Virus record (IMG/VR): IMGVR_UViG_3300002514_006955
Coordinates: 1-20,004 of that record
Length of the DNA: 20,004 nucleotides
Reading direction: 5' to 3' (one strand)
Origin: a virus
Part shown: positions 5,479-18,596 of the stretch, piece by piece
Position numbering within the stretch: the first letter of the stretch is position 1
How the letters are laid out: each line of letters starts with the position of its first letter
Translations under genes and position numbers: made by a program
The notes under the pieces: model-generated
Told to the model about the DNA's origin: nothing
Databases searched by the model: none
Seen by the model: only the letters and a program-made list of their open reading frames with translations

Positions 5479-8400
5479 CTAATTGCACGCAGAGAATCCG
5501 CAGTTTTTGCACATTTTGCAACCTTGTTCACGTATTAATTCATTTCCGCATTCTTCACATTCTTCGCCATTTACTTTTTTACCATCGTCAATATATTTTT
5601 TAAGCGATCTGGCTATAGCCTTTTCAAATGATCCAAAAGAAGCTGATTTCGTTTTTTCTAATTGTTCTACTACAAACGAGATATCTGCTCCATGTCTTAG
5701 ATTAGAAGAAACGAGTCTTGTGATAGCCTCTTCCATGTCGCCTGACTCATCCATTATATTCTCTATTTCGGCTCCTTCAGACGTAATGAGTTTATAATGT
5801 CCTCTCTTAACTTTTTTGAGCATACCTGTTTTATGAGCTTTGGGTATTTGCCCATTTTTAAGAGCAAAAATTTCATATGGGTCGTCAGACAAAAGCCCAA
5901 CTACGGTAAGGTAGTCTTGTCCTTTGACGGAAATATGATAAATATCACATGGTAAAACCTTTGGTCTTTTAGGAGCATCATGTTTATCAATGTTATCAGC
6001 ATCTCTTGGGATGCAGTTGCTATCATTGGCAATAAGAACTCCAGTCCTAGAATTTTCTCGATAAACAGTAATCCCTTTGAGTCCCGCTTTCCATGCAGCT
6101 TCATAGATATCAGCCACTTCTTCAGTTGTAGTCTCTTCTTTGAGGTTTATAGTGGACGATATTGAATGATCTAAATTTCTGCCTGCGGCAGCTTGCATTT
6201 GGATTCGTCTTTTCCAATCTATATCTTCTGCACATGCACCAAACCAGGGGGATTTTGTTATATCTGTTTCTCCAGTAACGTCCATCCACATTTTAACTTT
6301 AGAATGATAGACAGTAAACTCTTCCCATGAATCTCCGTTTTGGTCTACAAAATCAACTCTAGTATTTTTATCACTAGGATTAATCTTCTTTCTTCTCTTA
6401 TATTCCATTTGGAAAAGAGGCTCGATTCCAGATGTTGTCTGAGTTAAAATGCTCACGCTACCAGCAGGAGCAGACGTAAGAAGTCCTATATTCCTTCTGC
6501 CATACTTTCTCATATCTTTATATAGTTCTGGATCTTCTTCTTTTATTCTCAGCAAGAATGGATTATTCTTTTCAAGATTATAACCCCAAATTTTAAATGG
6601 TCCTAATTCTTTTGCCATGTCTACAGAACTTCTATAACATCCAAGTTTCAAGGTTCTATAAATTTTTTCTGCTGTTTTGATTCCTTGCTTGGAACCATAA
6701 TCAAGACCTAACGCTGCAAGCGTATCCCCTAGCCCCGTTGTTCCTGTTCCAGTCCTTCTCCCCGTTTCACAGACTTCGCGTATTTCTCTCCAAAGCGACA
6801 ATTCAACCAGTTTGATTGCCTCTGGCTCTGGATCTTTATCTATCTTATCTATGATTTTGTCAATACATTCTAACTCAAGATCTATTACATTTTCCATAAA
6901 TCTTTGAGCAACTTGTGCATCTTTATGGAATTGTTCAAAATCAAATTTGGCATTTTTAGTAAAAGGATCTATAACATAACTGAAAAGATTTAATAACAGT
7001 AATCTACAGGAATCACAAGGACTTAAAGGTACTTCGCCACATTGTAGTGCAAAAATACCATCAAATATATCATTTCCTGATTTATTTTTCCTGATATCAG
7101 TGATAACTCCTACAGTATGATTGTCATCCACAGTTATATTATAAACATCTTGTTTTTTTGTGATATATTCTATTTTAGTAACTTTATGATTGTAGTCTGC
7201 TGCTAATTCTTTAATTTCTGTGAGATTTTTAAAACCATATTTTGTTCGTAACCTAAACGAAACATTTTCTTTCTTGCAAGCGTTTTCCCATTCTTTAAGA
7301 GATGGGTTTTTAATAGGATTATCAAAAGTTAATTTAGAATAAATTCGCACTTGATCATTTCTCGTTTTTATAGCTTTCTTTTCATATGTATTATTGATCG
7401 AGTTAGTTCGTGTTTTATTAGTCCCTTTTTCGTTTGCATGATAATTACTGCAAGATATGCTACAAAAACTGATTTCTCTATGACTATAATCTACTTCGAA
7501 AGAATTTCCGCACCACTCACATTTGCGTATAACTTTAACTTTGTTCTGATCTATCCTTGCGTCATATCTCTGCTTTGTTGCCTTTTGAAAAGTTTTTACA
7601 ACTCTTGGATCTTTATCTGCATGTTCTATACCGCACTCATTTGCAGCCCATTTAGCTAGATCTAAAATATTTTTAAACCATCCATTAGTTCTAAAGCTAG
7701 AAAGTCGTTTGGGTATTTTTTTATCTTTAACAAAATTGAACCAGTCATTTTTAGTAAAACGTCTATTTATTTTTTTAGTCAATGTTATTGCAAATTGTTC
7801 TATATCTTTATTTGTGTATCCAGAATATCTGCCATTTTTTTCTCCTGAATTATCTTTTTTTGCATGATATTCTTTGTGTTCTGAAAACGTCATAATGTCT
7901 AAATTATTTGGGTCATTATTTAATCCATCATAGTCTTTATGATGTACAACAATGCCACCTTTTACCCAGCCATCTTGTTTGTTTATATCATATAAAGTAT
8001 TCCATTTATCAGTGTCCATAAATTTTGCAATCAACCTATGCTCATAGATTTTGTCTTTTTTAGAGTTTAAAGCGTTACAATACGTTCTATAGTATTCTTT
8101 CTTGTTAGTTTTAACAATTTTTTCTGGCCTTTTAATGAACTTAAATAAACTGTCACCGCTTTTTAATTCTTTCGCCTCTCTGGTTTCACCTGTTTTTAGA
8201 GGGAATTTGTGATCATGGGTTACATCGATGTGAGATCCATTGTCAAAATGGACTCGTACCATTTGCTTATTGACTCCGGTCTTTCTGGGATTTCTTCCCC
8301 ATTTAATAGATATTTCTCCATTATTGGGGTTAACAGAATATACTGGTACGTCCATTCCTTCTTTTGCTAAATCTTTAAGAGAGACAGCATTTCTTCCATC

Positions 8401-9321
8401 AGCTACTGCAATTAATGTATCTCCGCTAAAACACGGGTTCGTGCCTGTTGTAGTAAAGCCATATTTGCTATAACAGTCTGCTGGACTTTCTTCTAAGATT
8501 TTGTCCCAAAACAAAAGACCTGGTTCACCTGAGTTTCTAGCGTTTTCTACTATTTGTCTCCAAACATCTCTGGCGTTGACCATTCTAGATATTTTTGGAT
8601 TTTTCGAATCTACAGGCCAACGAATCTCATATTCTTTGTTTTTATTAACAGCCTCAAGAAATTCGTTTGTCAGCTTTATAGATATGTTTGCACCAGTAAC
8701 TCTTGTTAAATCTCTTTTGACTTTCGTAAATTTTAGTATTTCTGGATGATGAACGCTGATAGATAAAAGCATTGCTCCTCTTCTGCCGTTTTGAGCTACT
8801 TCACGTATAGAGTTGGAATATCTCTCCATAAAAGAAATAATGCCAGTAGATGTTCTAGCGGCATTAGTCGTAGGCGTTCCATCAGGACGGAGATTTGAGA
8901 TATCTGTCCCAACGCCGCCTCTGCGTTTGCATATTTGAACCATCTGTTGATCTGTATGCAAAATTCCAGAATAGCTATCTAAAGGAGGAGCAACGACAAA
9001 ACAATTAGACAGAGTTACAAATTGATAAGGATTTCCGATGCCATACATTAGTGAGCCTTGGGGAACAATCTTTTTGAAATTCTGTATGTATGATAATATC
9101 TCTTCAAAAGACATTGGATTTTTGAACTTTTTCTTTTCTATCCTAGCTAATTCGGTAGCCATCCTAACATGCATTTTGTCTGGAGTGTTTTCAAGGAGAT
9201 TTTGTTTATTATCTCTTAGTGCGTATTTGTCCAAAAAAACTTTTGCTGCTAATTTATCTCCGTTGAAATATTTTGTTGATTCCTTTAGAGATGAATTATA
9301 ATCGTAAATCTCCTGCTCCAT
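5479..9321 (-). CDS. nrdJ: Class II (adenosylcobalamin-dependent) ribonucleotide reductase precursor with intein
   Basis: It reduces ribonucleotides to deoxyribonucleotides. The 1280-residue precursor becomes about 816 residues after removal of a 464-residue intein (297-760). NrdJ features are LSNCFVV (Cys107, redox pair partner), the NP/CGE active site (N295, C761, E763 after splicing), SPCDSCRLL (the second redox Cys, about 772), SAPAGSVSILTQTTSGIEP (phosphate-binding region) and a C-terminal CxxCG...CxxCxxCG cluster ending ACN, typical of class II enzymes. No radical-generating small subunit is seen nearby, consistent with B12 use. The start has AGAAAGG upstream. A HNH homing endonuclease and dut follow on the same strand, making a DNA-precursor block. 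Substrate level (di- or triphosphate) cannot be read from sequence. Confidence 0.93.
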   Translation of the reverse strand: MEQEIYDYNSSLKESTKYFNGDKLAAKVFLDKYALRDNKQNLLENTPDKMHVRMATELARIEKKKFKNPMSFEEILSYIQNFKKIVPQGSLMYGIGNPYQFVTLSNCFVVAPPLDSYSGILHTDQQMVQICKRRGGVGTDISNLRPDGTPTTNAARTSTGIISFMERYSNSIREVAQNGRRGAMLLSISVHHPEILKFTKVKRDLTRVTGANISIKLTNEFLEAVNKNKEYEIRWPVDSKNPKISRMVNARDVWRQIVENARNSGEPGLLFWDKILEESPADCYSKYGFTTTGTNPCFSGDTLIAVADGRNAVSLKDLAKEGMDVPVYSVNPNNGEISIKWGRNPRKTGVNKQMVRVHFDNGSHIDVTHDHKFPLKTGETREAKELKSGDSLFKFIKRPEKIVKTNKKEYYRTYCNALNSKKDKIYEHRLIAKFMDTDKWNTLYDINKQDGWVKGGIVVHHKDYDGLNNDPNNLDIMTFSEHKEYHAKKDNSGEKNGRYSGYTNKDIEQFAITLTKKINRRFTKNDWFNFVKDKKIPKRLSSFRTNGWFKNILDLAKWAANECGIEHADKDPRVVKTFQKATKQRYDARIDQNKVKVIRKCEWCGNSFEVDYSHREISFCSISCSNYHANEKGTNKTRTNSINNTYEKKAIKTRNDQVRIYSKLTFDNPIKNPSLKEWENACKKENVSFRLRTKYGFKNLTEIKELAADYNHKVTKIEYITKKQDVYNITVDDNHTVGVITDIRKNKSGNDIFDGIFALQCGEVPLSPCDSCRLLLLNLFSYVIDPFTKNAKFDFEQFHKDAQVAQRFMENVIDLELECIDKIIDKIDKDPEPEAIKLVELSLWREIREVCETGRRTGTGTTGLGDTLAALGLDYGSKQGIKTAEKIYRTLKLGCYRSSVDMAKELGPFKIWGYNLEKNNPFLLRIKEEDPELYKDMRKYGRRNIGLLTSAPAGSVSILTQTTSGIEPLFQMEYKRRKKINPSDKNTRVDFVDQNGDSWEEFTVYHSKVKMWMDVTGETDITKSPWFGACAEDIDWKRRIQMQAAAGRNLDHSISSTINLKEETTTEEVADIYEAAWKAGLKGITVYRENSRTGVLIANDSNCIPRDADNIDKHDAPKRPKVLPCDIYHISVKGQDYLTVVGLLSDDPYEIFALKNGQIPKAHKTGMLKKVKRGHYKLITSEGAEIENIMDESGDMEEAITRLVSSNLRHGADISFVVEQLEKTKSASFGSFEKAIARSLKKYIDDGKKVNGEECEECGNELIREQGCKMCKNCGFSACN
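7042..8433 (-). mobile_element. HNH-bearing intein within nrdJ, Cys1 to C-terminal Gln
   Basis: A protein-splicing element of 464 residues (precursor 297-760). Block A is CFSGDTLIAV, and block B has the TxxH pair T368/H371 (VTHDHKF). Block F is DVYNITVDDNHTVGV (725-739). The last residues are GIFALQ and the +1 residue is Cys761, so the element ends in Gln rather than Asn and has Leu instead of the usual penultimate His. An HNH nuclease is embedded: VVHHKDYDGLNNDPNNLDI (458-476) and EHKEYH (481-486). A treble-clef-like zinc site, CEWC...CSISC (601-624), follows it. The extein junction rebuilds TNPCGEVPLSPCDSC, matching intact class II enzymes, so the boundaries are firm. The nuclease looks complete, so mobility is plausible. 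Confidence 0.93.
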
Positions 9322-9356
9322 ATCGCTTTTACCTTTCTATTATGTCTATTATTCAT

Positions 9357-9362
9357 ATTATA
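9357..9362 (-). promoter_or_regulatory. Possible -10 element (TATAAT) upstream of nrdJ
   Basis: TATAAT lies on the minus strand 35 bases before the nrdJ ATG, inside a 179-base gap (9322-9500) after the AAA+ gene. No good -35 hexamer stands at the usual distance (TAGCAA at 17 bases). The rest of the gap is A-rich, and nothing else in it was recognised. Confidence 0.3.
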
Positions 9363-9500
9363 TTTGAGACTATTTATTTTGCTACACCGAATCTTATTTT
9401 AAATGATTTGTAAAATCTTCCTTTGTTTTCTTTTCGTCGTAACACCAACTTTTTTTTAACTCGATTCTCTGTTAATCTTTAACGGCGAAATATATTTCTT

Positions 9501-10916
9501 CTAATGAAAACCCATTTTCTCTTTTGGCTCATATTCGGCTCCGCATCCAAAATCTTTGTCTTTTAATTCTTCAATTGCTTCTTCAAAATGCTTTTGTTTA
9601 ACAATAGCTATATCATTTTTGTTCATGCTTTTGTCTTCTATTGCTAGTATAGCAGCATATTCTGAGATATGGAAAATGAATGCACCAGGCATGCCTTTTG
9701 TTTTTTTAACTATTGCTTTTATATCTACATCTTTATGAAGTTTGAAGCTTTTTGTGAATATTTCAATCATCTTTTCTCTTTCTTTTGCTGCGGGAACATC
9801 GACTTCTATAACTTTATCAAACCTTCCAGGTCTGTTTTTAATCGCTTTTTCGACTTTATCTATCATGTTAGTGGTCGCAATAGTAATAACATTTTTGAAT
9901 TCTTCTTGCAGTCCGTCCATTCTATTCATAAGTTCAATACACAAATTGCCACCGTGACCGCTAAAATCTCTATCTTCTGCGATATAATCAATATCTTCAA
10001 GTATCAACAGAGTTGGTGATAGATCTTTTGCCATTTCGCATATTCTAGAGACATCGCAAATACGTCTTATGTCTGACGGAAGAACATATATAATGGTCAT
10101 AGGCATTTCATTCGCTAGAACTTTACAGAGCATTGTCTTGCCTGTCCCAGGAACTCCACATAATATTATGCCTCGTTTTATAGAAATCTTATTTTTGGCA
10201 AGAATGTCTCTGTTGCTATATAGGTTATGAACATTTCTTTTTATGACTTTTTTGATTTTAGGTGCAATTATTATAGAATCCCAATTAGTCTTTTTATTTA
10301 GCTCTAAGAAATTGCAAAGGGGATTTATTTTTTGACCTTTATAGAAATTATTTTGCTTGCTATAACTTAACCATTTTTCCCAAAAATCTTTTGGACTTTT
10401 CAATGCAAAAATGCTATAGTTCTGCATCGATCCGTCATAGTTCGGACTCGTGAACAACGCTATTCTTTCGTTTGTTTTTTTGTTCTCCATGAATATAAAG
10501 GCTTTTATATATATAGTAAAACTCTTGCCTGGTGAGCTATATGCGATACTCATTTTAGGTTCTACAATTGCCGAATATTTAGAGATGTAGAATTTATCAA
10601 CTATCTTATAGTCATTATTTTTTAGGAAAGTTTTTAATTGATACTGCAATATGTTGTGTATGTAGAAACTAGAGTTCATGTCTACAGACTGATATTTTTT
10701 ATTGTTGAAAAATTCTGCAAGTTTCAAGACTCCAAGATCTTCGTTTGAGAATATATCCGATATTTGTCCTAGATTTGATTCAAACAATTTAACGTCAGAA
10801 TCCTTTCCTTTGGATATAGACAATTTCGAACCAGATTCAGTTACTTGAGGTTCACAAGCATCTTGATCGTCGTATCCGTCATATCCATCAGCGTACCCTT
10901 CATTTATATCTGTCAT
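9501..10916 (-). CDS. AAA+ family ATPase
   Basis: A 471-residue protein with a single C-terminal AAA module that would couple ATP hydrolysis to remodelling of a protein or nucleoprotein target, not identified here. Walker A is GVPGTGKT (254-261), Walker B is LLILEDID (303-310), sensor 1 is ATTN (347-350) and the arginine-finger region is NRPGRFD (361-367). The pore-loop region after Walker A (about 277-290) is not clearly of the aromatic-hydrophobic-glycine type. The roughly 250-residue N-terminal part matches nothing I recognise; it begins with a tyrosine/aspartate-rich tract (GYADGYDGYDDQDA) that is probably disordered. The AAA core most resembles the FtsH/Cdc48/BCS1 branch seen in large phages. 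The start has CAAGGAAACAAA upstream. It stands between a DUF115-like gene and nrdJ on the same strand. Confidence 0.88.
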   Translation of the reverse strand: MTDINEGYADGYDGYDDQDACEPQVTESGSKLSISKGKDSDVKLFESNLGQISDIFSNEDLGVLKLAEFFNNKKYQSVDMNSSFYIHNILQYQLKTFLKNNDYKIVDKFYISKYSAIVEPKMSIAYSSPGKSFTIYIKAFIFMENKKTNERIALFTSPNYDGSMQNYSIFALKSPKDFWEKWLSYSKQNNFYKGQKINPLCNFLELNKKTNWDSIIIAPKIKKVIKRNVHNLYSNRDILAKNKISIKRGIILCGVPGTGKTMLCKVLANEMPMTIIYVLPSDIRRICDVSRICEMAKDLSPTLLILEDIDYIAEDRDFSGHGGNLCIELMNRMDGLQEEFKNVITIATTNMIDKVEKAIKNRPGRFDKVIEVDVPAAKEREKMIEIFTKSFKLHKDVDIKAIVKKTKGMPGAFIFHISEYAAILAIEDKSMNKNDIAIVKQKHFEEAIEELKDKDFGCGAEYEPKEKMGFH

Positions 10917-10942
10917 TTTGTTTCCTTGTATAGCGTTGAATT

Positions 10943-10967
10943 ATTGCATTATAGCAGATGATGCAAT
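10943..10967 (-). promoter_or_regulatory. Extended -10-like TGCTATAAT within a 7-bp inverted repeat
   Basis: In the 50-base gap before the AAA+ gene, the minus strand has TGCTATAAT (10956-10948), an extended -10 form. It overlaps one arm of the perfect inverted repeat ATTGCAT (10943-10949) / ATGCAAT (10961-10967). No U-tract follows, so a terminator is unlikely. No convincing -35 is seen. It may be an internal promoter, possibly with an operator. Confidence 0.35.
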
Positions 10968-11689
10968 CACTTTTTTCTATTCTTTTTGGATTGGACATTT
11001 CTAGAGAATAATCTTTCTACAAAATATTCTCTAGTGTTTGCCGGATAATATGGTTTCAATTTTTTGACAACTTTGTCAAGAGGAAGACGATCTTTTAAGA
11101 ACTTATTGTCAGAACAATTAATAATCATTCTACCATTAGAACTTTTAGTTATCCATTTTAATCCTCTAGAACAGTTGGTTAATGTGTGTTTTTTGTGATG
11201 GGAATTATTCCCATAAAAGTCTGTTATACCATCTCTATTTTGACAGTCGAACCCTATCAAAACGATGGGATCGCAACCCAGAGCGTGAGCAAATTGGTAT
11301 GCTAGTGGTCCAGTACTACCCTTCCCAAAAAGAACCATTGGGTTAGGAGGAATACGAAACGGTCCTGGCATGAGTTTAAATTGATATGCGATCCCTCGTG
11401 GATCAGAAGCATTTCTACTATATTTAACGGCTTTCAATTTAGGTAAAATCGCTCTTTCTGTCAACCATAATTCTACGTCTTGCCACATTAATACAGTAGG
11501 GTCTATAACTTTAAACGCTCTATTAATACCTATCGTGAAAGTACCTTTCAATAAAGATGCGACATCATAGTCATTAACTGACGGACCATTTCCTATAATA
11601 AAACCAGGTAGTCCTCGCATTGTACTTTTCCAACGTCTGACTGTCAGTCTCGATTTTTTAGATACATGTACCACTTTTTTATTTATCAT
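10967..11689 (-). CDS. DUF115 / MptE-like sialyltransferase-fold protein
   Basis: About 240 residues from an ATG at 11689, which has AAAGAG upstream. It contains LPGFIIGNGPSVNDYD near its N-terminus, the glycine-rich nucleotide-phosphate loop typical of the DUF115 (MptE-like) group. FTIGINRAFKVIDPTVLMWQ follows, and then FGKGSTGPLAYQFAHALGC with IVLIGFDCQN, the second conserved block of that group. Relatives include 6-hydroxymethylpterin pyrophosphokinases and sialyltransferase-like glycosyltransferases, and many phages carry them without a known role. I therefore give only a fold-level call; a nucleotide-sugar or pterin substrate cannot be chosen. The basic C-terminus is rich in Lys and Arg. 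A longer reading from GTG at 11755 would overlap the HNH gene and lacks a ribosome site. Confidence 0.68.
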   Translation of the reverse strand: MINKKVVHVSKKSRLTVRRWKSTMRGLPGFIIGNGPSVNDYDVASLLKGTFTIGINRAFKVIDPTVLMWQDVELWLTERAILPKLKAVKYSRNASDPRGIAYQFKLMPGPFRIPPNPMVLFGKGSTGPLAYQFAHALGCDPIVLIGFDCQNRDGITDFYGNNSHHKKHTLTNCSRGLKWITKSSNGRMIINCSDNKFLKDRLPLDKVVKKLKPYYPANTREYFVERLFSRNVQSKKNRKK

Positions 11690-11712
11690 TTTTCTCTTTA
11701 GGGGGTTTTCTT

Positions 11713-12366
11713 CTATGGTTCTAACTCTACGTCCCAATAACCAAATTCGTTCCACTGGTCAGTACGAACGAAATATTTCCATTCTTTTGGAAGTTTTTGA
11801 CCAAAGGTATATAAGGGATTCCAATGAGGTTCTCTGGGAGTACTAAGCAACTTAAGCCCTGCTTCTTCAGGAGTTCTTCCTCCTTTTTCAACATTAACTT
11901 CAAAAGTCGAGATAACGACATTATCCCATGTAGTTAATCCACCGCGACATTTTGGCATAATGTGATCTATTGTTCCAGTTCTAGAAGTTACTTTTTTGGC
12001 GGTATATTGACATCTGTATCCATCTCTAATTAAAAGATTTCGTCTTGTAAGTCTAACTCTAGTGTGGGGAATTTTATTGTATTTTTGAAGGACAACAATT
12101 CTTGGAAGTCTAACTTTAAATCTATTAACGTTAAGCCATTGATAATCTCCGTAAATAGATTCATCATCCTCAATGGGAATTGAAAAGAGGTCGGACCAAT
12201 CGCTCCATGTCAAATGTTGAAACGTTTCGTTATCTACGTATTTTGCACGAAAAGAAAATACTTTATTTAATGTTTTATACAGAGGTGTAAAACCAATAGC
12301 ATCTAAGCTTTTGTTTAGAACAAGCGTAGGACTATTTATTATATTATTATTGGTTTGTGTTGTCAT
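11713..12366 (-). CDS. HNH endonuclease family protein with degenerate zinc site
   Basis: The 217 residues follow the widespread bacterial HNH family that begins with VLNxSxxxIG and carries KIPHTRVRLTRRNLLIRDG (98-116) before the nuclease core. The core reads YRCQYTAKK, TIDHIMPKCRGG (132-143, with D134/H135), TWDNVV (146-151) and KGGRTPEEAG (161-170). In typical members two CxxC pairs bind structural zinc; here only Cys119 remains, with Thr122, Thr154 and Val157 in the other places. The DH, GG and Asn positions of the nuclease are kept, so activity without zinc is possible. Its ATG overlaps the macro-domain gene's stop (ATGA), so it is translationally coupled. Its role is unknown; related genes in phages are linked to packaging or DNA processing. 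Confidence 0.85.
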   Translation of the reverse strand: MTTQTNNNIINSPTLVLNKSLDAIGFTPLYKTLNKVFSFRAKYVDNETFQHLTWSDWSDLFSIPIEDDESIYGDYQWLNVNRFKVRLPRIVVLQKYNKIPHTRVRLTRRNLLIRDGYRCQYTAKKVTSRTGTIDHIMPKCRGGLTTWDNVVISTFEVNVEKGGRTPEEAGLKLLSTPREPHWNPLYTFGQKLPKEWKYFVRTDQWNEFGYWDVELEP

Positions 12367-12866
12367 TTCTCTAGAATACTGTTAACCTTATTTATGAAGT
12401 TTTCATTTTTGTCTACAAAGTATATTTCAAGTATGTTATCGTATTCTTTAGCATGTTTTACCATTATGTTTGCAACCAAAGAATATTCTAAAGATCCTAC
12501 TCCAGTTCCCAACGCTGTCATAGCCACAGATTTTATATCATCTAATAATAATCGCTCAAACACGCTTTTTATCGCTTTCGAAATTATATTTAGACTTGTA
12601 TATCCACCAGGATATCTCATGGTTACGGCATGATAAATATATTTTACACTATTTGTAGACAGATCGCCGGGTCCAGTCACGTAACATTCGCCAGCTTCTT
12701 TATTCTTATTTTTGCATATCCTTCTCGCTTCATTTTGTATTTCTATACCACCAGCACGCCGAATAGATCCTGCAACTCCTCCCCCCATAACACCAATGCC
12801 ATTAGCAGCATTGACTATTACGTCTGTATGTACGTCAACTATGTCTCCCACAAAAGCATTTATCAT
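12363..12866 (-). CDS. Macro domain protein (ADP-ribose binding or hydrolysis)
   Basis: A stand-alone macro domain of 167 residues. Macro domains bind ADP-ribose and related metabolites, and some remove ADP-ribose from proteins, nucleic acids or O-acetyl-ADP-ribose. The signature DVIVNAANG (15-23, Asn19 and Asn22) is followed by GGGVAGSIRRAGG (28-40), the loop that contacts the distal ribose. ALGTGVGSLE (118-127) is the phosphate-binding loop. The GGGVAGSI arrangement is closer to MacroD/Af1521-type domains than to the viral type, and no catalytic claim can be made from sequence alone. AGGATATAAAA precedes the ATG. It starts 9 bases after the sigma-factor stop and overlaps the HNH gene. The NAD+ genes lie just across the divergent control region, which suggests a shared theme. 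Confidence 0.92.
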   Translation of the reverse strand: MINAFVGDIVDVHTDVIVNAANGIGVMGGGVAGSIRRAGGIEIQNEARRICKNKNKEAGECYVTGPGDLSTNSVKYIYHAVTMRYPGGYTSLNIISKAIKSVFERLLLDDIKSVAMTALGTGVGSLEYSLVANIMVKHAKEYDNILEIYFVDKNENFINKVNSILEK

Positions 12867-12875
12867 TTTTATATC

Positions 12876-13700
12876 CTAGAACAAAGGATTACTATTTTTA
12901 CATTTTTCTATTATATCAAGAATATTATCACTAAAATAATTTGGATTGATTTTTATTCTAGTTTTTAGTCTTTTCAAAACGCTTTGATGGATCTGACTAA
13001 TTCTTGATTCAGAGATTTTGAGTTGTTTGGCTATTTCTTTCATAGTCAATTCTTCGTAGTAATATAAGTAGACAATGTTTTTTTCTAGTTTTGTAAATCT
13101 TCTGCCAATAAGTTTATTCAAGAATTCCATCCTCACTATCCTACTATCAGGCGATGAGTTTTTATGAGATTCAAGATATTCGTTGAAGTCTTTTTTGTTG
13201 TCATTATTATCTATATCTGGGTTGGAGCATGACTCTATGCTAAAGATCGATCTCGCACGAAATTTTTCAGGATGCTTGTTGTAGTCTAATTCGTTAATAC
13301 CCAATTCTTTTAACGCATCTGACCTACTCGCTTTTTCACCACTAGCATTTTGAAGTTTATCTTGCTCTTTTTGTATTGAATTTTCTCTGATTCTTACACT
13401 TCTAGGAACCCAATCTTCTTTTCTCAGTCCATCTAACATCGCTCCCCTTATCCTAATGTAAGCATATGTCTCAAATTTATTGCCTCGCGTGACATCAAAG
13501 TTTTCTATAGCTTTATACAATCCATCGACTCCATGAGATGCTAATTCTGGTTGAGAAACATGACCGTTCAACTTTCTAGATAATGTTGTTGCAATCTTGT
13601 TTACGAATGTGAAATAATGTTCAACTAACTTGTTTTTACTTTTATCGTCTCTATCTTTTAAATATACGTCCCAAACATCAAAAATATTTTCAACTTTCAT
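12876..13700 (-). CDS. FliA/sigma-28-like RNA polymerase sigma factor
   Basis: A 274-residue sigma-70 superfamily factor with regions 2, 3 and 4. Region 2 contains FDVTRGNKFETYAYIRIRGA (68-87), then MLDGLRKEDWVPRSVR (88-103), a hallmark of the FliA/WhiG/SigF group. Region 4 has LTMKEIAKQLKISESRISQI (218-237), the helix-turn-helix that reads the -35 box, and ends LKRLKTRIK. Long linkers rich in Asn, Asp and Lys are present around residues 155-185. It would direct host RNA polymerase to a phage promoter class. The start at 13700 has AGGAG 5 bases upstream; a longer TTG start at 13751 lacks support. It leads the macro/HNH/DUF115 run and diverges from the NAD+ genes. Confidence 0.93.
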   Translation of the reverse strand: MKVENIFDVWDVYLKDRDDKSKNKLVEHYFTFVNKIATTLSRKLNGHVSQPELASHGVDGLYKAIENFDVTRGNKFETYAYIRIRGAMLDGLRKEDWVPRSVRIRENSIQKEQDKLQNASGEKASRSDALKELGINELDYNKHPEKFRARSIFSIESCSNPDIDNNDNKKDFNEYLESHKNSSPDSRIVRMEFLNKLIGRRFTKLEKNIVYLYYYEELTMKEIAKQLKISESRISQIHQSVLKRLKTRIKINPNYFSDNILDIIEKCKNSNPLF

Positions 13701-13722
13701 ACGGTCTCCTATTATAAGGTTA

Positions 13723-13733
13723 ATATTATAGTG
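13723..13733 (-). promoter_or_regulatory. -10-like element CACTATAATAT facing the sigma-factor gene
   Basis: TATAAT occupies 13730-13725 on the minus strand, 24 bases before the sigma-factor ATG. TTGATG (13751-13746) is a possible -35 at a short 15-base spacing. The same 11 bases occur on the opposite strand at 13776-13786. Confidence 0.45.
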
Positions 13734-13775
13734 CGACAGGAATTGCATCAAATTAAGAGTTCATCAAATTTACTA

Positions 13776-13786
13776 CACTATAATAT
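13776..13786 (+). promoter_or_regulatory. -10-like element CACTATAATAT facing pncB
   Basis: An exact copy of the 11 bases found on the minus strand at 13733-13723, here pointing to pncB, with TATAAT at 13779-13784. No TTGACA-like hexamer is at the right distance, so recognition by a non-housekeeping sigma factor, or by an activator, is possible. Confidence 0.42.
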
Positions 13787-13853
13787 ACGACAAATTGTAT
13801 ACACATATTTAAAAAAAATGCAAAAAACTTCCAAGATGTGACTCAAAAAGAGA

Positions 13854-13859
13854 TATAAT
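13854..13859 (+). promoter_or_regulatory. Second -10-like TATAAT before the pncB leader hairpins
   Basis: An exact TATAAT lies in an A-rich stretch about 20 bases before the first hairpin of the pncB leader. A transcript from here would begin almost at that hairpin. The -35 region is weak (CTTCCA at 19 bases). Confidence 0.35.
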
Positions 13860-13878
13860 AACAAATCAATCATAAACA

Positions 13879-13911
13879 GAAATCGGGAAAAAGATTACAT
13901 TTCCCGATTTT
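13879..13911 (+). terminator. First of two near-identical hairpins in the pncB leader
   Basis: AAATCGGGAAA (13880-13890) pairs perfectly with TTTCCCGATTT (13900-13910) around a 9-base loop, and one extra G-U pair closes the base. Only four T's follow before GTC, so it is weaker than the second hairpin as a terminator. It may be an attenuator, a processing site, or the end of a small RNA. Confidence 0.5.
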
Positions 13912-13950
13912 GTCAAAAAGTTTATGCTTAAAATCATAAAAATAGAGATT

Positions 13951-13985
13951 ATCGGGAAATGAGTAAATTTCCCGATTTTTATTTT
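13951..13985 (+). terminator. Second leader hairpin, intrinsic-terminator-like, upstream of pncB
   Basis: ATCGGGAAAT (13951-13960) pairs perfectly with ATTTCCCGAT (13967-13976) around a 6-base loop, followed by TTTTTATTTT on the plus strand. This is a good intrinsic terminator placed 42 bases before the pncB ATG. Its arms are nearly the same as those of the first hairpin, so the outer arms could also pair with each other across both. This suggests transcriptional attenuation in the 327-base gene-free region 13701-14027, which otherwise holds only -10-like elements and the pncB ribosome site. Confidence 0.6.
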
Positions 13986-14027
13986 AATTACAATAGGAGC
14001 GAGACGTAACAATAGAAAGGATGAAAA

Positions 14028-15194
14028 ATGGCTAGAATAACATCAAAATTAGATAATGATCTTTACAAGATTACAATGGGTGCTGCTGTAGTCAAATTAT
14101 ACCCAAATGCTAATGTAAAGTATTCTCTCTTCAATCGAGGCGGGACTGTCTTCCCAGAAGGATTCGCAAAAAAACTCAGAGAAGCAGTAGATGAAATGGC
14201 ATATCTCCCTGATTTGAATGCCTCTCAAATAGCATGGTTAAAAATCAATTGCCCATTTCTTTCTAACCCTTATATAGATTTTTTCGTAAAATATAAATAT
14301 AATCCAGAAGAAGTAGTAATATGGCAAAATGATGCTGGAGAACTTAGCGTCATCATAGAAGGTCCATGGTACAGCACAATCTATTGGGAAGTTCCTCTTA
14401 TGTCTCTCATTAGCGAGTTATATTTCGAAATGACAGGACAAAAGCCCAATGACAACTATGAAGAAATCGCCAGAAAGAAAGGCAAAAGACTTGAAGAAAT
14501 GGGAGCGTACTTCGCTGATTTCGGTAGTCGTAGACGCTTTTCTCTCAGAGTCCACGATTATGTCGTTAACGAATTGAAAACATCGAAAACTTTCATTGGA
14601 ACAAGTAACGTTCTTTTGGCATACCTCTACGGAGTTAAGCCCATTGGGACAGAAGCTCACGAATGGATTATGTTCCACGCCGCTAAATACGGATACAGAA
14701 TGGCTAACTCAATCGCTCTTGGACGATGGGTTGATGTCTATCACGGCGATCTTGGTATTGCATTGACAGATACATTCACAACCGATGACTTCTTCAAATC
14801 GTTTGACATGATGTATGCTAAACTATTCGATGGAGTAAGACATGATTCCGATGATGCTATAGTTTTCGCAAATAAAACTATCGCTCACTACAAAAGACTT
14901 GGAATCGATCCGTTGTCGAAAACTATCATCTTCTCCGATGGACTAAACGTCGATGAAGTAAAAAGGATTCATGAATTCTGCAAAGGAAAGATTAAAGACG
15001 GTTACGGCATCGGAACACATTTTTCCAACGATGTTGGAGTAAAGCCTCTTAACATAGTTATTAAAATGATAGCGGCTCAACCTAACGGTCAAGAACCTTG
15101 GGTTAATACATGCAAGCTTTCTGATGTTAGAGGAAAACATACAGGAGCAATCGAAGCAATCGAACTTTGCAAAACTACATTAGGAATTAAATAA
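14028..15194 (+). CDS. pncB: Nicotinate phosphoribosyltransferase
   Basis: It joins nicotinate and PRPP, with ATP hydrolysis, to make nicotinate mononucleotide, the entry step of the Preiss-Handler route to NAD+. The 388 residues follow bacterial PncB over the whole length: LDNDLYKITMG (8-18), FNRGG (35-39), YNPEEV (91-96), GPWYSTIYWEVPLMSLISE (112-130), FADFGSRRRFS (162-172), GTSN (191-194), GTEAHEW (207-213, with His211 matching the phosphorylated His of the E. coli enzyme), LGIALTD (242-248), RHDSDD (271-276) and VKPLNIVIK (338-346). The match to PncB rather than nicotinamide phosphoribosyltransferase is clear. GAAAGGATGAAAA precedes the ATG. Its stop shares one base with the nadE start (TAATG), so the two are co-translated. 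Confidence 0.95.
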   Translation: MARITSKLDNDLYKITMGAAVVKLYPNANVKYSLFNRGGTVFPEGFAKKLREAVDEMAYLPDLNASQIAWLKINCPFLSNPYIDFFVKYKYNPEEVVIWQNDAGELSVIIEGPWYSTIYWEVPLMSLISELYFEMTGQKPNDNYEEIARKKGKRLEEMGAYFADFGSRRRFSLRVHDYVVNELKTSKTFIGTSNVLLAYLYGVKPIGTEAHEWIMFHAAKYGYRMANSIALGRWVDVYHGDLGIALTDTFTTDDFFKSFDMMYAKLFDGVRHDSDDAIVFANKTIAHYKRLGIDPLSKTIIFSDGLNVDEVKRIHEFCKGKIKDGYGIGTHFSNDVGVKPLNIVIKMIAAQPNGQEPWVNTCKLSDVRGKHTGAIEAIELCKTTLGIK

Positions 15195-16915
15195 TGAAAA
15201 TAGTAATCGCACAAACCAATACTACGCCTTTGGATTTTCAAAGCAATACAGACCAAATTAAACTTGCAATGGAAACGGCTCGTGCTGATACGACTATCAG
15301 TTTGGTCGTAACGCCTGAACTTTCAATTCCAGGATACCTTGTAAAAGATCTAATGTACAACCACGATTTTGTTGAACAGAATTTAAGATGGTTACAAGAG
15401 ATCGTTACGTTCTCGGCTGGAAGTCAATACTCTACCGTTGTTGGATACATCGACAAGAATTATAATGGTCGAGGTAAACCTTTCCGTAACATGCTTGCAG
15501 TTATAAAAAACGGGACAGTTGTAGCTCGATACCAAAAACAACTGTTACCGTTCTACGATGTGTTTGACGAAGGGCGATATTTCGAACCTGGCAATAAATT
15601 AGCGGTTGTCGAAATAGACGGAGAAAAATGGGGATTAGCAATATGCGAAGATATTTGGAACGATAAAGATACCGACGATTATAACTATAAAACTAATCCT
15701 CTCGCTCAATATCGTGAAATGGGCATTCATAACATTATTAGCATCAATAGCTCTCCGTATGTTATGGGAAAGCCTGCCGAACGAATTAAAACGTTAAGAG
15801 AAAGTTTTGCGAAAGGGACTTTGATCTATGTCAACCAAATTGGCGGTCAAGACGATCTAGTTTTTGATGGTCACAGTCTTATCGTAGAAACTGGTAGAGT
15901 TACGTATAAGGCAGAAAGAACTATCAAATCTACGTCCCATGTCTGTACGACAGGTAACGAACACTATATAGATGTAGACGTAATGGAGAAGGTAAAGGGA
16001 AGCGAAGAAGATCCGATTGGATTACTTTGGGATATGCTCATTCTCGGATTGAGAGATTATATCAAAAAGAGCGGATTCAACTCTGTCGTTTTCGGAAGCT
16101 CTGGCGGAATCGATTCAGCCGTAATTGCAGCATTAGCTTGCGATGCTATCGGAGCAGAAAATGTTTACGGAATAAGAATGCCAAGCATCCACAGTAGCGA
16201 TCACTCCTTAGACGATGCAAAAAAATTGCAAAAGAATCTTCAATTCAACGATTCTCTTCTTCCAATCAAACATATAGAATTGTTGAGCGAATACAATAAA
16301 GTCTTTGCCAAGATCAAAGACGATAAAGGCTATAAAGGCTATAATGATGTAGCAGACCAAAATATGCAAGCTAGAATTCGCGGAGCAGCCGTAATGCATG
16401 CTTCTAACGCTTTTGGTATGCTTCCTCTCAGTACAGGCAATAAATCTGAATTGTCAGTCGGCTACTGCACAATCTATGGAGATATGTGCGGAGGATTCGC
16501 TCCTATCAATGATGTTTACAAAACCATCGTTTATGCTTTAGCTGAATACTTCAATAAGAAAAATAAGAAAGAGTTAATCCCTGTTAACATCATAAGGAAA
16601 CCGCCAAGTGCAGAACTTGCTCCTGATCAAAAAGATGATGACAATTTATTGCCATACGAAATCTTAGATCCGATTCTTTATGCATACATCGAATGTTATA
16701 TCGGCGATTTCTATGAATTCATAAGTACTGATGACCTCCCAGAAGAAGTAAAAGTCTGGGCTGTAACGCCAAACGCAAAAGCTCAATACGATAGAATGAT
16801 ATCGTTGGTTGATCGTACAGAATTCAAACGCCGACAAGCCGCTCCCGGTATCAAAGTATCAAAAGTTTCGTTCGGTACATCGAGAAGAGTTCCAATAGTT
16901 TTTAAGAAACGTTAA
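15194..16915 (+). CDS. nadE: Glutamine-dependent NAD+ synthetase
   Basis: It amidates nicotinate adenine dinucleotide to NAD+ using ATP, with ammonia taken from glutamine. The 573 residues contain both domains. The N-terminal nitrilase-like glutaminase has the Glu-Lys-Cys triad at E42 (VTPELSIPGY), K115 (RYQKQLLPFYDVFDEGRYF) and C151 (AICEDIW). The C-terminal synthetase has the ATP P-loop SSGGIDS (302-308), STGNKSE (413-419), GDMCGGFAPINDVYKT (429-444) and KPPSAELAPDQKDDD (about 466-480). No motif is missing, so it should be active. It is coupled to pncB by a one-base overlap. The intermediate adenylylation (NadD) is absent from the window. A terminator-like hairpin follows at 16991. Confidence 0.96.
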   Translation: MKIVIAQTNTTPLDFQSNTDQIKLAMETARADTTISLVVTPELSIPGYLVKDLMYNHDFVEQNLRWLQEIVTFSAGSQYSTVVGYIDKNYNGRGKPFRNMLAVIKNGTVVARYQKQLLPFYDVFDEGRYFEPGNKLAVVEIDGEKWGLAICEDIWNDKDTDDYNYKTNPLAQYREMGIHNIISINSSPYVMGKPAERIKTLRESFAKGTLIYVNQIGGQDDLVFDGHSLIVETGRVTYKAERTIKSTSHVCTTGNEHYIDVDVMEKVKGSEEDPIGLLWDMLILGLRDYIKKSGFNSVVFGSSGGIDSAVIAALACDAIGAENVYGIRMPSIHSSDHSLDDAKKLQKNLQFNDSLLPIKHIELLSEYNKVFAKIKDDKGYKGYNDVADQNMQARIRGAAVMHASNAFGMLPLSTGNKSELSVGYCTIYGDMCGGFAPINDVYKTIVYALAEYFNKKNKKELIPVNIIRKPPSAELAPDQKDDDNLLPYEILDPILYAYIECYIGDFYEFISTDDLPEEVKVWAVTPNAKAQYDRMISLVDRTEFKRRQAAPGIKVSKVSFGTSRRVPIVFKKR

Positions 16916-16990
16916 AGGAATGTTTACGATAACAATGTAATATTATAGAAGTGTCCGACCATTACTTCGAGATACTACTATAAAATTGTT

Positions 16991-17045
16991 AGGGATAATT
17001 CCTGTTTCTGAGTAATGGCTGAAACGGGTTTTATCCCTATTTTAT
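16991..17045 (+). terminator. Long hairpin downstream of nadE, likely terminator
   Basis: AGGGATAATTCCTGTTTC (16991-17008) and GAAACGGGTTTTATCCCT (17021-17038) form an 18-position stem with one G-U pair and two T-T mismatches, around a 12-base loop. ATTTTATTT follows. It stands 75 bases after the nadE stop. The T-tract is interrupted, so termination may be partial, which would allow read-through to the Nudix gene. The 140 bases between nadE and the decayed HNH gene hold nothing else that I recognise. Confidence 0.65.
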
Positions 17046-17056
17046 TTGGAGCAACA

Positions 17057-17401
17057 ATGCGGATAGATCCTAATGATATAATAAATAAAAAATACAATAT
17101 GTTAACTGTGAAAAAGTATGATGGATTTATGCTCTTGGAACCAAAAGGAAAAGGCATTTTTATATTTGCGAATGTAAATGCGGAGGAATCAAATTTGCCT
17201 ATTTTTTTACCAAAAGGCGGTAATGATTGGGATCATGAGAATACTGCATCTTTAGATAGAATCGATAGTAGTAAAGGATATGTAAAAGACAATGTTCAGT
17301 GGGTTCACAAAGATATTAATCGTATGAAATGGAATTTTCCTCAAGATAAATTTGTTAAATTATGTTCTTTTGTGGCAAATAAAATAATGGATGAGAAATA
17401 A
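17057..17401 (+). pseudogene. Decayed HNH homing endonuclease (frameshift and internal deletion)
   Basis: An open frame of 114 codons from an ATG with GGAG 5 bases upstream. It starts like the zinc-repeat homing endonuclease at 4664-5398 (NDIINKKYNMLTVKKYDG) and ends with its HNH core (ASLDRIDSSKGY, DNVQWVHKDINRMKWN). Between them the frame reads nonsense, but in the neighbouring frame bases 17155-17202 encode HFYICECKCGGIKFAY, the CxCxCG zinc repeat. That repeat has therefore been pushed out of frame by an indel. The rest of the repeats and the linker (well over 100 residues in the intact relative) are missing. Only the ends remain joined, probably by a second indel that restored frame near the T-run at 17202-17208. 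It is best read as a dead remnant between nadE and the Nudix gene. Confidence 0.85.
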
Positions 17402-17460
17402 AGTCGCATTTGGTACCGGCAGAAGGATGCCCATTGTTAAAAACTCAAATAAAGGATAAA

Positions 17461-18018
17461 ATGAAAACAACTAAACGAGAAGTAATCACAGAACGTCCGT
17501 TCTTGAACCTTATGGAAGCAACATATGAACATGAAGGCAAAGAAGGAAAGTGGACCTATGTGAGCAGATCAACTACAGAACCTGAAGGATGCGATGCCGT
17601 TATGATCGTTGGTTTGATGAGAGATCCTCATAGATTAGTTCTAATCAAACAATATAGAGTTCCTGTTGGCGATTATATTCTAGAATTCCCTGCTGGACTT
17701 ATAGATGAAGGAGAGACAGTAGAAGATACAGCTAAAAGAGAATTCGAAGAAGAAACAGGCATGAAGGTAAAAAAGATTCTGACCGTTAGCCCTCCAACAT
17801 ACAATTCAGCAGGACTCACAGACGAAACAGTGGCTATGGTTTTTGCAGAAGTCGAGGGAGAACCTTCTACCGAAAAAAATGAATCTGCTGAAGATATAGA
17901 AATACTTGTTTTAAATACTAAACAAGTGGCTGATTTAATAGATGATGAAACGGTTAAATGGTCTGCTAAAGGTTGGCTTTATAGCGGTATGTTTGTAAGA
18001 ATAATGTCTAATTTTTGA
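17461..18018 (+). CDS. Nudix hydrolase, ADP-ribose pyrophosphatase type
   Basis: A 185-residue Nudix protein likely to cleave ADP-ribose to AMP and ribose-5-phosphate. The Nudix box is complete at residues 79-101: G79, E85, then R93-E94-F-E-E97-E98-T-G100-M101, with the metal-binding glutamates in place. The N-terminal FLNLMEATYEHEGKEGKW and the LIKQYRVPVGDYILEFPAG stretch before the box are typical of the ADP-ribose pyrophosphatase subfamily, as is the SPPTYNSAGLTDE segment after it. The chosen ATG has AAAGGA 4 bases upstream; a longer TTG start at 17410 is less likely. It follows pncB and nadE, which fits recycling of ADP-ribose released by NAD+ breakdown. Its end overlaps the convergent u-spanin gene by 11 bases. 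Other nucleoside diphosphate substrates are not excluded. Confidence 0.9.
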   Translation: MKTTKREVITERPFLNLMEATYEHEGKEGKWTYVSRSTTEPEGCDAVMIVGLMRDPHRLVLIKQYRVPVGDYILEFPAGLIDEGETVEDTAKREFEEETGMKVKKILTVSPPTYNSAGLTDETVAMVFAEVEGEPSTEKNESAEDIEILVLNTKQVADLIDDETVKWSAKGWLYSGMFVRIMSNF

Positions 18019-18550
18019 AAAACGTAAATTTAACGATTAAACCTACTCCCAAAAGACCAAAGATCAAACCTAACCAAAACTTCGGACTTTCCCAAATATT
18101 GTTATATGGAGTCGGTTCAAAAGGAATGTCTATAGGAACAATGTTTTCAATAGGACTAGTGACTAAATCGTTTATTTTGTCAGAACTGTCGCCAATAGTC
18201 TTTAAATAAGGCTCTATAGAAGGCTTTGTGGTTGGTTCTGTGGTCTTTGCTATAGTTTTTATGGCATTGACCCCATTTTTTATCTTATTGCTCTCAGCGA
18301 CGATATTTTCAAGAACTTTTTGCTTCTGCTTTGCTACCCTCTCAAGGCTGTCTATCTTTTCTGTTTTATTACGATTGTCTACCACAAGGTTTTCAATAGT
18401 TATCGGCTCTTCAAAAATAGGCTCACCTATATCTTCTACTGGTGTTGCTTGAGGAGTAATCGAGCTATCTGGCGTATCGTTGAAGTAAAACTCGTAACAT
18501 CCAGAACAAAGGACTAAAGCGATTATCAATGTTAGTGCTATTTTTTTCAT
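18008..18550 (-). CDS. Probable unimolecular spanin (u-spanin)
   Basis: A 180-residue protein whose layout fits a u-spanin, the single protein that links and fuses inner and outer membranes at the end of Gram-negative lysis. From the ATG at 18550 it has a basic N-terminus and hydrophobic core (MKKIALTLIIALVLCSGC). The Cys at position 18 is the probable lipid-attachment residue; the -3 position is Cys instead of Leu, so the lipobox is imperfect. A periplasmic linker rich in Pro, Thr and Glu and a helical, coiled-coil-like stretch (about 65-105) follow. The C-terminus is a membrane helix, FWLGLIFGLLGVGLIV, ending in a short basic tail. It lies next to a lysozyme gene, on the opposite strand. 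GGAG is 12 bases before the ATG. No sequence match to a known spanin is claimed; the call rests on topology and neighbours. Confidence 0.68.
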   Translation of the reverse strand: MKKIALTLIIALVLCSGCYEFYFNDTPDSSITPQATPVEDIGEPIFEEPITIENLVVDNRNKTEKIDSLERVAKQKQKVLENIVAESNKIKNGVNAIKTIAKTTEPTTKPSIEPYLKTIGDSSDKINDLVTSPIENIVPIDIPFEPTPYNNIWESPKFWLGLIFGLLGVGLIVKFTFFKN

Positions 18551-18574
18551 TTTAAAGGATATCTCCGTTATATA

Positions 18575-18593
18575 CCGAATATATATTATCGGC
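18575..18593. promoter_or_regulatory. Palindromic AT-rich element between u-spanin and lysozyme, with GCCGATAA
   Basis: CCGAATATATATTATCGG (18575-18592) is an imperfect palindrome in the space between the two divergent lysis genes. On the minus strand its edge reads GCCGATAA (18593-18586), identical to the classical -10 box of FliA-type sigma factors, and about 35 bases before the u-spanin ATG. The -35 TAAA is not at the expected distance, so a promoter claim is tentative. Confidence 0.35.
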
Positions 18594-18596
18594 ATA

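Follow-up and report, generated by a model that had tools for sequence, protein, structure and literature searches.

The window analysed here is the virus record IMGVR_UViG_3300002514_006955 of IMG/VR in its entire length of 20,004 bp, which represents only a piece of a very large phage genome. On its plus strand, pncB and nadE stand together and are followed by genes for an HNH endonuclease and a Nudix hydrolase, and a unit coding for a sigma factor and a macro-domain protein runs in the opposite direction (Table 1). By family assignment, PncB and NadE are enzymes of the Preiss-Handler route, and the two genes probably represent the locally clustered portion of such a route, encoded by the phage and leading from nicotinamide to NAD+.

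Table 1. Features around pncB and nadE in the window.
Feature	Position	Strand	Matches and scores
Macro-domain protein, 167 amino acids, second gene of the divergent unit	12363..12866	-	PF01661, 84.5 bits
FliA/WhiG-like sigma factor gene (frame)	12876..13751	-	TIGR02479, 195.8 bits (cut-off 189.6)
pncB leader, inverted repeat in two copies with a T run after the second (attenuator- or terminator-like)	13880..13985	+	
pncB, nicotinate phosphoribosyltransferase, 388 amino acids	14028..15194	+	TIGR01514, PRK05321, 2im5
nadE, glutamine-dependent NAD+ synthetase, 573 amino acids	15194..16915	+	PRK13981, 5kha
HNH endonuclease gene, insertion between nadE and the Nudix gene	17015..17401	+	PHROG endonuclease families
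Nudix hydrolase, 185 amino acids from ATG	17461..18018 (frame opens 17410)	+	PF00293, NUDT5, Nudix box

PncB matches TIGR01514 at 388.5 bits (cut-off 269.55) and PRK05321 at 425.1 bits (cut-off 379), its nearest solved structure is 2im5 (E 9.6e-98), and H211, which we take to be an active-site residue, is invariant across eight phage PncBs. The same protein reaches 46.5 bits with phrog_448, far below its score with TIGR01514, and PF04095 gives a single match in 11 of 12 relatives and none in the twelfth; from its matches, the phosphoribosyltransferase of the window is a PncB and not NAMPT. NadE is composed of CN_hydrolase and NAD_synthase domains, matches PRK13981 at 536.6 bits (cut-off 479), and has 5kha as its nearest solved structure (E 1.2e-103). 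Its presumed active-site residues E42 and K115 are invariant in six phage NadEs, C151 is found in five of the six, and the SSGGIDS loop is present. The stop codon of pncB and the start codon of nadE have one base in common. An earlier reading of these letters without database searches (the sequence-only reading) had noted this overlap together with intact catalytic motifs, and had placed the genes in the Preiss-Handler route rather than in the NARP1 or NARP2 sets of other phages; the junction and the active-site residues confirm the former, and the scores of both enzymes above curated cut-offs agree with the latter.

Nineteen proteins of the window were compared with PHROGs, and ten of these also with Pfam and NCBIfam. 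Genes for a large terminase, a dUTPase and ribonucleotide reductase, HNH genes and a lysozyme-like gene were found, and because of the terminase, dUTPase and ribonucleotide reductase matches the locus is regarded as phage DNA, as the sequence-only reading had assumed, and not as cellular chromosome. That cellular DNA was misfiled as viral in this case is extremely improbable. PncB and NadE belong to the usual enzyme complement of bacteria, and a phrog_2 terminase match was obtained in only 25 of the 50 viral contigs searched overall, but the phage genes of the window, and a terminase match in seven of eight contigs searched from its own clade, led us to dismiss contamination. A misfiled record does exist: CAKLQF020000022.1, named Acinetobacter phage MD-2021a, has rpsL and other housekeeping genes on the flanks of nadE and is bacterial chromosome, and its matches were excluded from the argument. 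The large subunit of ribonucleotide reductase in the window (5479-9321, minus strand) carries an HNH-bearing insert of approximately 450 amino acids that looks intein-like by eye, and a relative of this subunit in locus L186 has weak Hint/intein matches.

To survey other phages, IMG/VR was scanned with alignments of phage PncB and NadE, and with an alignment of the sigma factor for the clade of the window, and the loci were annotated with our own hidden Markov models (HMMs). Relatives of phage PncB are encoded by 234 stretches at E <= 1e-3, of which the best 80 were retained. In total, 94 loci were clustered at 95% to give 83 non-redundant phage PncB loci, whose neighbourhood was defined as 10 kb; two loci that nearly duplicate the window (L002 and L003) and two that lie on the contigs of L079 and L005 (L080 and L106) were excluded before the count, NadE loci whose stretch lacks PncB stand outside the 83, and 55 of the 83 cover at least 19 kb. 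Within the neighbourhood, NadE was found in 62 loci, PncA in 52, an adenylyltransferase of the NadD, NadR or NadM type in 31, a Nudix gene in 28 and a macro domain in 14. PncB, PncA and NadE occur together in 40 loci, at least one partner is present in 77, and none of the three partners in six. NadR is an NMN (nicotinamide mononucleotide) adenylyltransferase, hence not strictly a Preiss-Handler step; all four steps are found in 21 of the 83 loci, 16 with NadD proper, four with NadR only and one with a NadM-type enzyme. These proportions change little when the ten loci from the NadE and sigma queries are excluded (n = 73: NadE 52, PncA 48, adenylyltransferase 29, Nudix 22, any partner 67, all four steps 19). 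Most partners lie on the strand of PncB (NadE 62/62, PncA 50/52, adenylyltransferase 30/31). The figures under-count phages that read TAG as a sense codon: on the contig of L095, two TAG codons stand in frame within an adenylyltransferase gene (G038:81595-82089), which suggests that TAG is sense there.

The bacterial route from PncA to NadE uses the same enzyme families as that of the window, but its genes are seldom clustered. With the same HMMs, 80 bacterial pncB loci (chosen as the best PncB matches and largely from Bacteroidota; one of them, L239, may be phage DNA) gave PncA in three, NadD in two, NadE and Nudix in one each and macro in none, with any partner in five, although HMMs derived from phage proteins may under-detect bacterial partners; a bacterial NadE was still matched at 2.9e-63. 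Since 5/80 stands against 77/83, the co-occurrence in phages exceeds chance. L239 itself, assigned in its record to a Myxococcota metagenome-assembled genome, is a contig of 12.8 kb with a Nudix-NadE-PncB-PncA cluster (8513-11751) in a phage-like arrangement. The survey answers in the affirmative the question, left by the sequence-only reading, of whether pncB, nadE and a Nudix gene co-occur in other phages. It supports a route under phage control; it does not indicate the reason for which the route is retained.

The proposed reactions follow the order of nicotinamide recycling in bacteria, namely PncA, PncB, NadD and NadE. PncA would convert nicotinamide to nicotinate, PncB would form nicotinate mononucleotide (NaMN) from nicotinate and phosphoribosyl pyrophosphate (PRPP), NadD would convert NaMN to nicotinate adenine dinucleotide (NaAD), and NadE would turn NaAD into NAD+ with ammonia from glutamine. 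In the window phage, PncA and NadD are probably encoded at other places of the genome, as seen in a relative of 548 kb (see below).

Candidates for both of these enzymes are present in the survey. In the phage PncA candidates, D62, H64, H131, K165 and C215, presumably the functional motif residues, are invariant in 50 out of 50, and at E <= 0.001 PF00857 matches 44 and the nicotinamidase model 43 of the 50; six or seven candidates rest on motifs and context, because the family models miss them. Among the 52 PncA loci, L088 has a piece of 129 amino acids lying at the end of its stretch, and in L081 and L113 the frames are 364 and 649 amino acids long. In L005 (7086-14277), L274 (910-3165) and L275 (1480-3112), the protein encoded after the long-form PncA candidate resembles vWA proteins on inspection by eye; the one in L005 has no Pfam match, and PP2C and kinase-domain genes stand after PncB-NadE in that locus. 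TIGR00482 recognises each of the 23 phage NadD candidates at E <= 0.001, some of them under its cut-off; 19 are matched by the coaD model as well, with a weaker best E. NadD-like proteins of 293-299 amino acids with an extra N-terminal part of approximately 100 residues occur in L071 (12789-13670), L048 (12387-13286) and L066 (6118-7008).

Long contigs illustrate how the four steps may be arranged. G059 (548 kb), the sole clade contig longer than 200 kb, has PncB and NadE above Pfam cut-offs near 46 and 53 kb (converted from L181), NadD at 93.9 kb (TIGR00482, 183.8 bits; cut-off 112.45), and, at 73.6 kb, a candidate for PncA in which the motif set is complete; the latter two are thus 20-50 kb away from PncB. 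In MT835470 (117 kb, gut), PncA, PncB, NadE, NadD and Nudix are found in one stretch, and LR756501 (735 kb) carries PncB, NadE, PnuC, a NadR-like protein and PncA in approximately 9 kb, with PnuC above its cut-off. Among 12 relatives, PF01467 matches in seven and PF00857 in five.

There are also observations that count against a complete phage route. The PncA candidate of G059 is sub-threshold (25.4 bits against a Pfam cut-off of 27, and 29.6 against 174 with the nicotinamidase model), NadD of MT835470 reaches 84.1 bits against the cut-off of 112.45 with its PncA also under the NCBIfam cut-off, and both NadR and PncA of LR756501 fall under theirs. Two contigs near-identical to the window (29 and 37 kb) gave no PncA or NadD/adenylyltransferase match with Pfam, and the adenylyltransferase family PF01467 was found in none of 20 clade or close-kin contigs of 12-186 kb (two sets of eight clade contigs and four close contigs), approximately 15 of which have PncB in the stretch covered. 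As to PncA in these 20, PF00857 is above cut-off in three and weak in two more, and the match in G056 lacks the full motif set by eye. An isochorismatase-family protein above the Pfam cut-off is encoded in clade loci L092 and L100, and PncA candidates in L178, L274 and L275.

Such absences could mean that the pathway is split, that is, that the phage supplies PncB and NadE (together with Nudix) and boosts the NaMN-forming and final steps, and the host supplies PncA and NadD; to our knowledge, NadD is near-universal in bacteria. Besides the small contigs, PF01467 finds nothing at E <= 0.01 in 6 of 16 contigs longer than 200 kb, all six of which encode PncB, and a seventh has a match only below the cut-off. 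On the other hand, the small clade contigs are fragments, and the sole longer one has NadD and a PncA candidate; all four steps are found in a quarter of the PncB loci; and a Pfam search barely scores diverged enzymes, as in LR756500, where the PF01467 match has an E of 0.0028 and is below the cut-off. A split pathway is therefore unlikely in our view. The sequence-only reading had inferred that the adenylyltransferase is missing and that the phage depends on the nicotinamidase of its host, and this part of it is not borne out in that form: because the record is a 20,004-bp fragment, the absence of NadD from it is uninformative, and a split deduced from the window alone was dismissed. The locus cautions against inferring missing steps from 20-kb fragments.

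The same step is sometimes carried by quite different enzymes in related phages. L004 is close to the window in NadE (88% identity), Nudix (76%), the product of the open reading frame at 18008-18595 (65%), the lysozyme-like protein (86%) and that of the last open reading frame (83%). Its PncB, a 306-amino-acid piece at the contig end, is 42% identical to that of the window and stands nearer, at approximately 55%, to the PncBs of L094-L096 and L101; this mosaic may be a chimeric contig assembly. In L008, sigma (67%), macro (57%), PncB (66%) and Nudix (54%) resemble those of the window, and NadE has 271 amino acids with the synthase domain only, as against the glutamine type of 573 in the window. 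Among the 62 loci with NadE, its frame is at least 500 amino acids long in 17 and short in 45. A pathway under selection would be expected to retain a step while its enzyme is exchanged. In a PncB tree made by a quick method from 82 phage and 80 bacterial rows, the two groups are strongly sorted (4 changes, as against 54 by shuffle); with 50 of the 159 inner branches open and some of the rows long, we do not read from it which way transfer went.

The Nudix hydrolase would add the recycling of ADP-ribose to the route. The protein, which probably starts at the ATG at 17461, where its relatives begin, has an intact Nudix box, matches PF00293 at 60.2 bits, and has human NUDT5 as its nearest solved relative (E 1.4e-21); probably, it is a pyrophosphatase for ADP-ribose or another ADP-sugar. 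ADP-ribose pyrophosphatases (ADPRases) yield AMP and ribose 5-phosphate, the latter of which can be used by host PRPP synthetase, so that a phage ADPRase may clear the other product of NADases and feed PRPP formation. Speaking against this substrate, matches to the NCBIfam ADP-ribose diphosphatase models are all under cut-off, and ADPRase-like Nudix enzymes can take other substrates. Thus, of the complete ADPRase-type Nudix gene after nadE in the sequence-only reading, the intact box and the NUDT5-like character stand, but an HNH gene intervenes and the NCBIfam cut-offs are not reached. L004 does not have this HNH gene, and its nadE and Nudix genes are spaced by 17 bp.

As to the purpose of the route, NADases release nicotinamide and ADP-ribose, and PncA, PncB, NadD and NadE can rebuild NAD+ from the former. 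The phage route would maintain NAD+ through infection, and the likeliest selective reason may be resistance to NAD+-depleting defences. Bacterial immunity commonly acts by depleting NAD+. The phage counter-measures described for this are NARP1 and NARP2, and a deamidating route, if it works in infection, would extend the list. We consider it quite possible, if somewhat short of probable, that PncA-PncB-NadD-NadE with Nudix recycling of ADP-ribose is a third phage route of NAD+ rebuilding, widespread in huge phages, in which enzymes are swapped and steps kept. If true, it predicts phages resistant to Thoeris, SIR2 or TIR defences and supplies ready-made operons for testing. Plain metabolic supply is the other purpose to be weighed: the route would raise NAD+ to serve phage replication, such as the needs of an NAD+-dependent DNA ligase of the phage, with no selection by defence. 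A DNA_ligase_aden match at E <= 0.001 is found in 17 of 50 records searched, 16 of them above cut-off and G059 among them; in the remaining 33, mostly fragments, there is none, and these include LR756511 (595 kb) and LR756501, both carriers of NAD genes. The ligase as sole reason was dismissed on this count; it can be one consumer, hardly the general reason. Supply and counter-defence are compatible and the present data separate neither, and supply without defence selection is a conceivable explanation to which we incline somewhat less than to the third route.

Other NAD+ routes of phages differ in chemistry. NARP2 consists of NAMPT and an NMN adenylyltransferase. It is, as NadV-NadM, likewise a phage salvage from nicotinamide, but it retains the amide and goes via NMN, whereas the route of the window is deamidated and involves NadE. 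NARP1 (Adps and Namat) is also phage-encoded rebuilding of NAD+ from NADase products; according to excerpts of its descriptions, ADPR-PP is made and then joined to nicotinamide in two steps (PMC12774641; PMC13232231). Neither Adps (PRPP-synthetase-like) nor Namat (NAMPT-like) was named in the general scans of the 19 window proteins, in which no dedicated NARP model was run on what is a fragment.

The individual parts have been met before in phages. NadV, NadM and NadR were surveyed as phage NAD+ synthesis enzymes in a study whose main text, as far as available, has no occurrence of PncB or NadE (PMC9503650). Closest is a gut-virus study, in which pncA, pncB, nadD and nadE are among the KEGG-assigned auxiliary metabolic genes and three contigs are drawn: the same four KEGG enzymes appear there in human-gut viral operational taxonomic units, but the portion of the paper available compares KEGG frequencies between patient groups, with no huge-phage pathway analysis, gene swapping or test (PMC11780533). 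Isolated jumbo phages are known as well. Sinorhizobium phage Phosso and Agrobacterium phage Atu_ph07 have PncB, NadE, Nudix, adenylyltransferase-family and isochorismatase-family genes, in Phosso all in one stretch, but their PncBs are distant from that of the window (27-28% identity); for Atu_ph07, the accessible text reports the nicotinate phosphoribosyltransferase gene as a polymerase chain reaction marker and discusses Nudix, NadR and PnuC (PMC6102473). From partial texts, nadE is listed with NAMPT, nadM and nadR in snow viruses (PMC11097641), and a nicotinamidase among gut phages (PMC10607447); in another such text, these enzyme terms were found only in the references (PMC7824862). For Xanthomonas phage X1, the available part of the report lists pncB, nadM, nadD, nadE and NAMPT and suggests counter-defence (PMC13384950); no Xanthomonas phage is among our 25 NadE-matched and 13 PncB-matched records, and we did not use this list as support. 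Both the individual parts and an initial suggestion of counter-defence are thus already known. Beyond the items cited, no account of phage PncA-PncB-NadD-NadE as a counter-defence system, nor a view of it as a system across huge phages, was found in the open-licence PMC literature, which leaves subscription journals uncovered.

The pncB leader contains inverted repeats. Over 13860-14030 its predicted fold has z = -5.8 and is better than 200 out of 200 shuffles, with the two copies paired to each other. An Rfam search of the leader gave no match at E <= 0.5, and a riboswitch was dismissed; a scan for terminator-like sites found three, with 3.2 expected. Exactly this pair of repeat arms recurs in L002, a near-identical copy of the window; of 11 other loci, none has it. 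In L008, two repeats resemble those of the window, and the fold of the leader is unremarkable (z -1.18; 27 of 200 shuffles fold at least as well). A conserved RNA structure is not claimed on these grounds.

Opposite pncB, the sigma factor probably starts at M18 of the listed frame, and the macro domain behind it is also assigned by a profile search; its relatives are 29-57% identical to the window protein. A FliA-like sigma factor stands opposite PncB in 14 of the 83 phage loci, with macro behind it in 13 (L074 is without). Seen from the sigma side, 20 loci have macro beside sigma in 19 and PncB in 15. The stretch end cuts off the PncB side in L185, and L177, L180, L186 and L189 have sigma and macro but no PncB in the stretch examined, the rest of those contigs not having been searched. 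In L177 and L186, the macro gene is followed by lookalikes (by eye) of the next genes of the window and then by ribonucleotide reductase (Pfam), and other genes occupy the expected place of PncB. Sigma and macro thus resemble a backbone, next to which the NAD genes appear to be movable.

The sequence-only reading had joined macro and Nudix with PncB-NadE into one functional set for ADP-ribose handling. Its position of macro as second gene of the opposite unit stands, but macro is only a possible member of the NAD set, because the sigma-macro pair is also found in those four clade loci with no PncB nearby. Macro is present in 14 of the 15 PncB-bearing sigma loci (two near-identical to the window), and Nudix genes accompany PncB in a third of the survey; outside sigma loci, however, macro is near PncB in one of 69, and its sequence is poorly conserved. 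A single functional set is accordingly doubtful in our judgement. Its case also includes ADP-ribosylglycohydrolase-like genes close to PncB in L010 (9851-10651), L107 (11851-12651) and L121 (4514-5335), of which the loci L010 and L107 are near copies.

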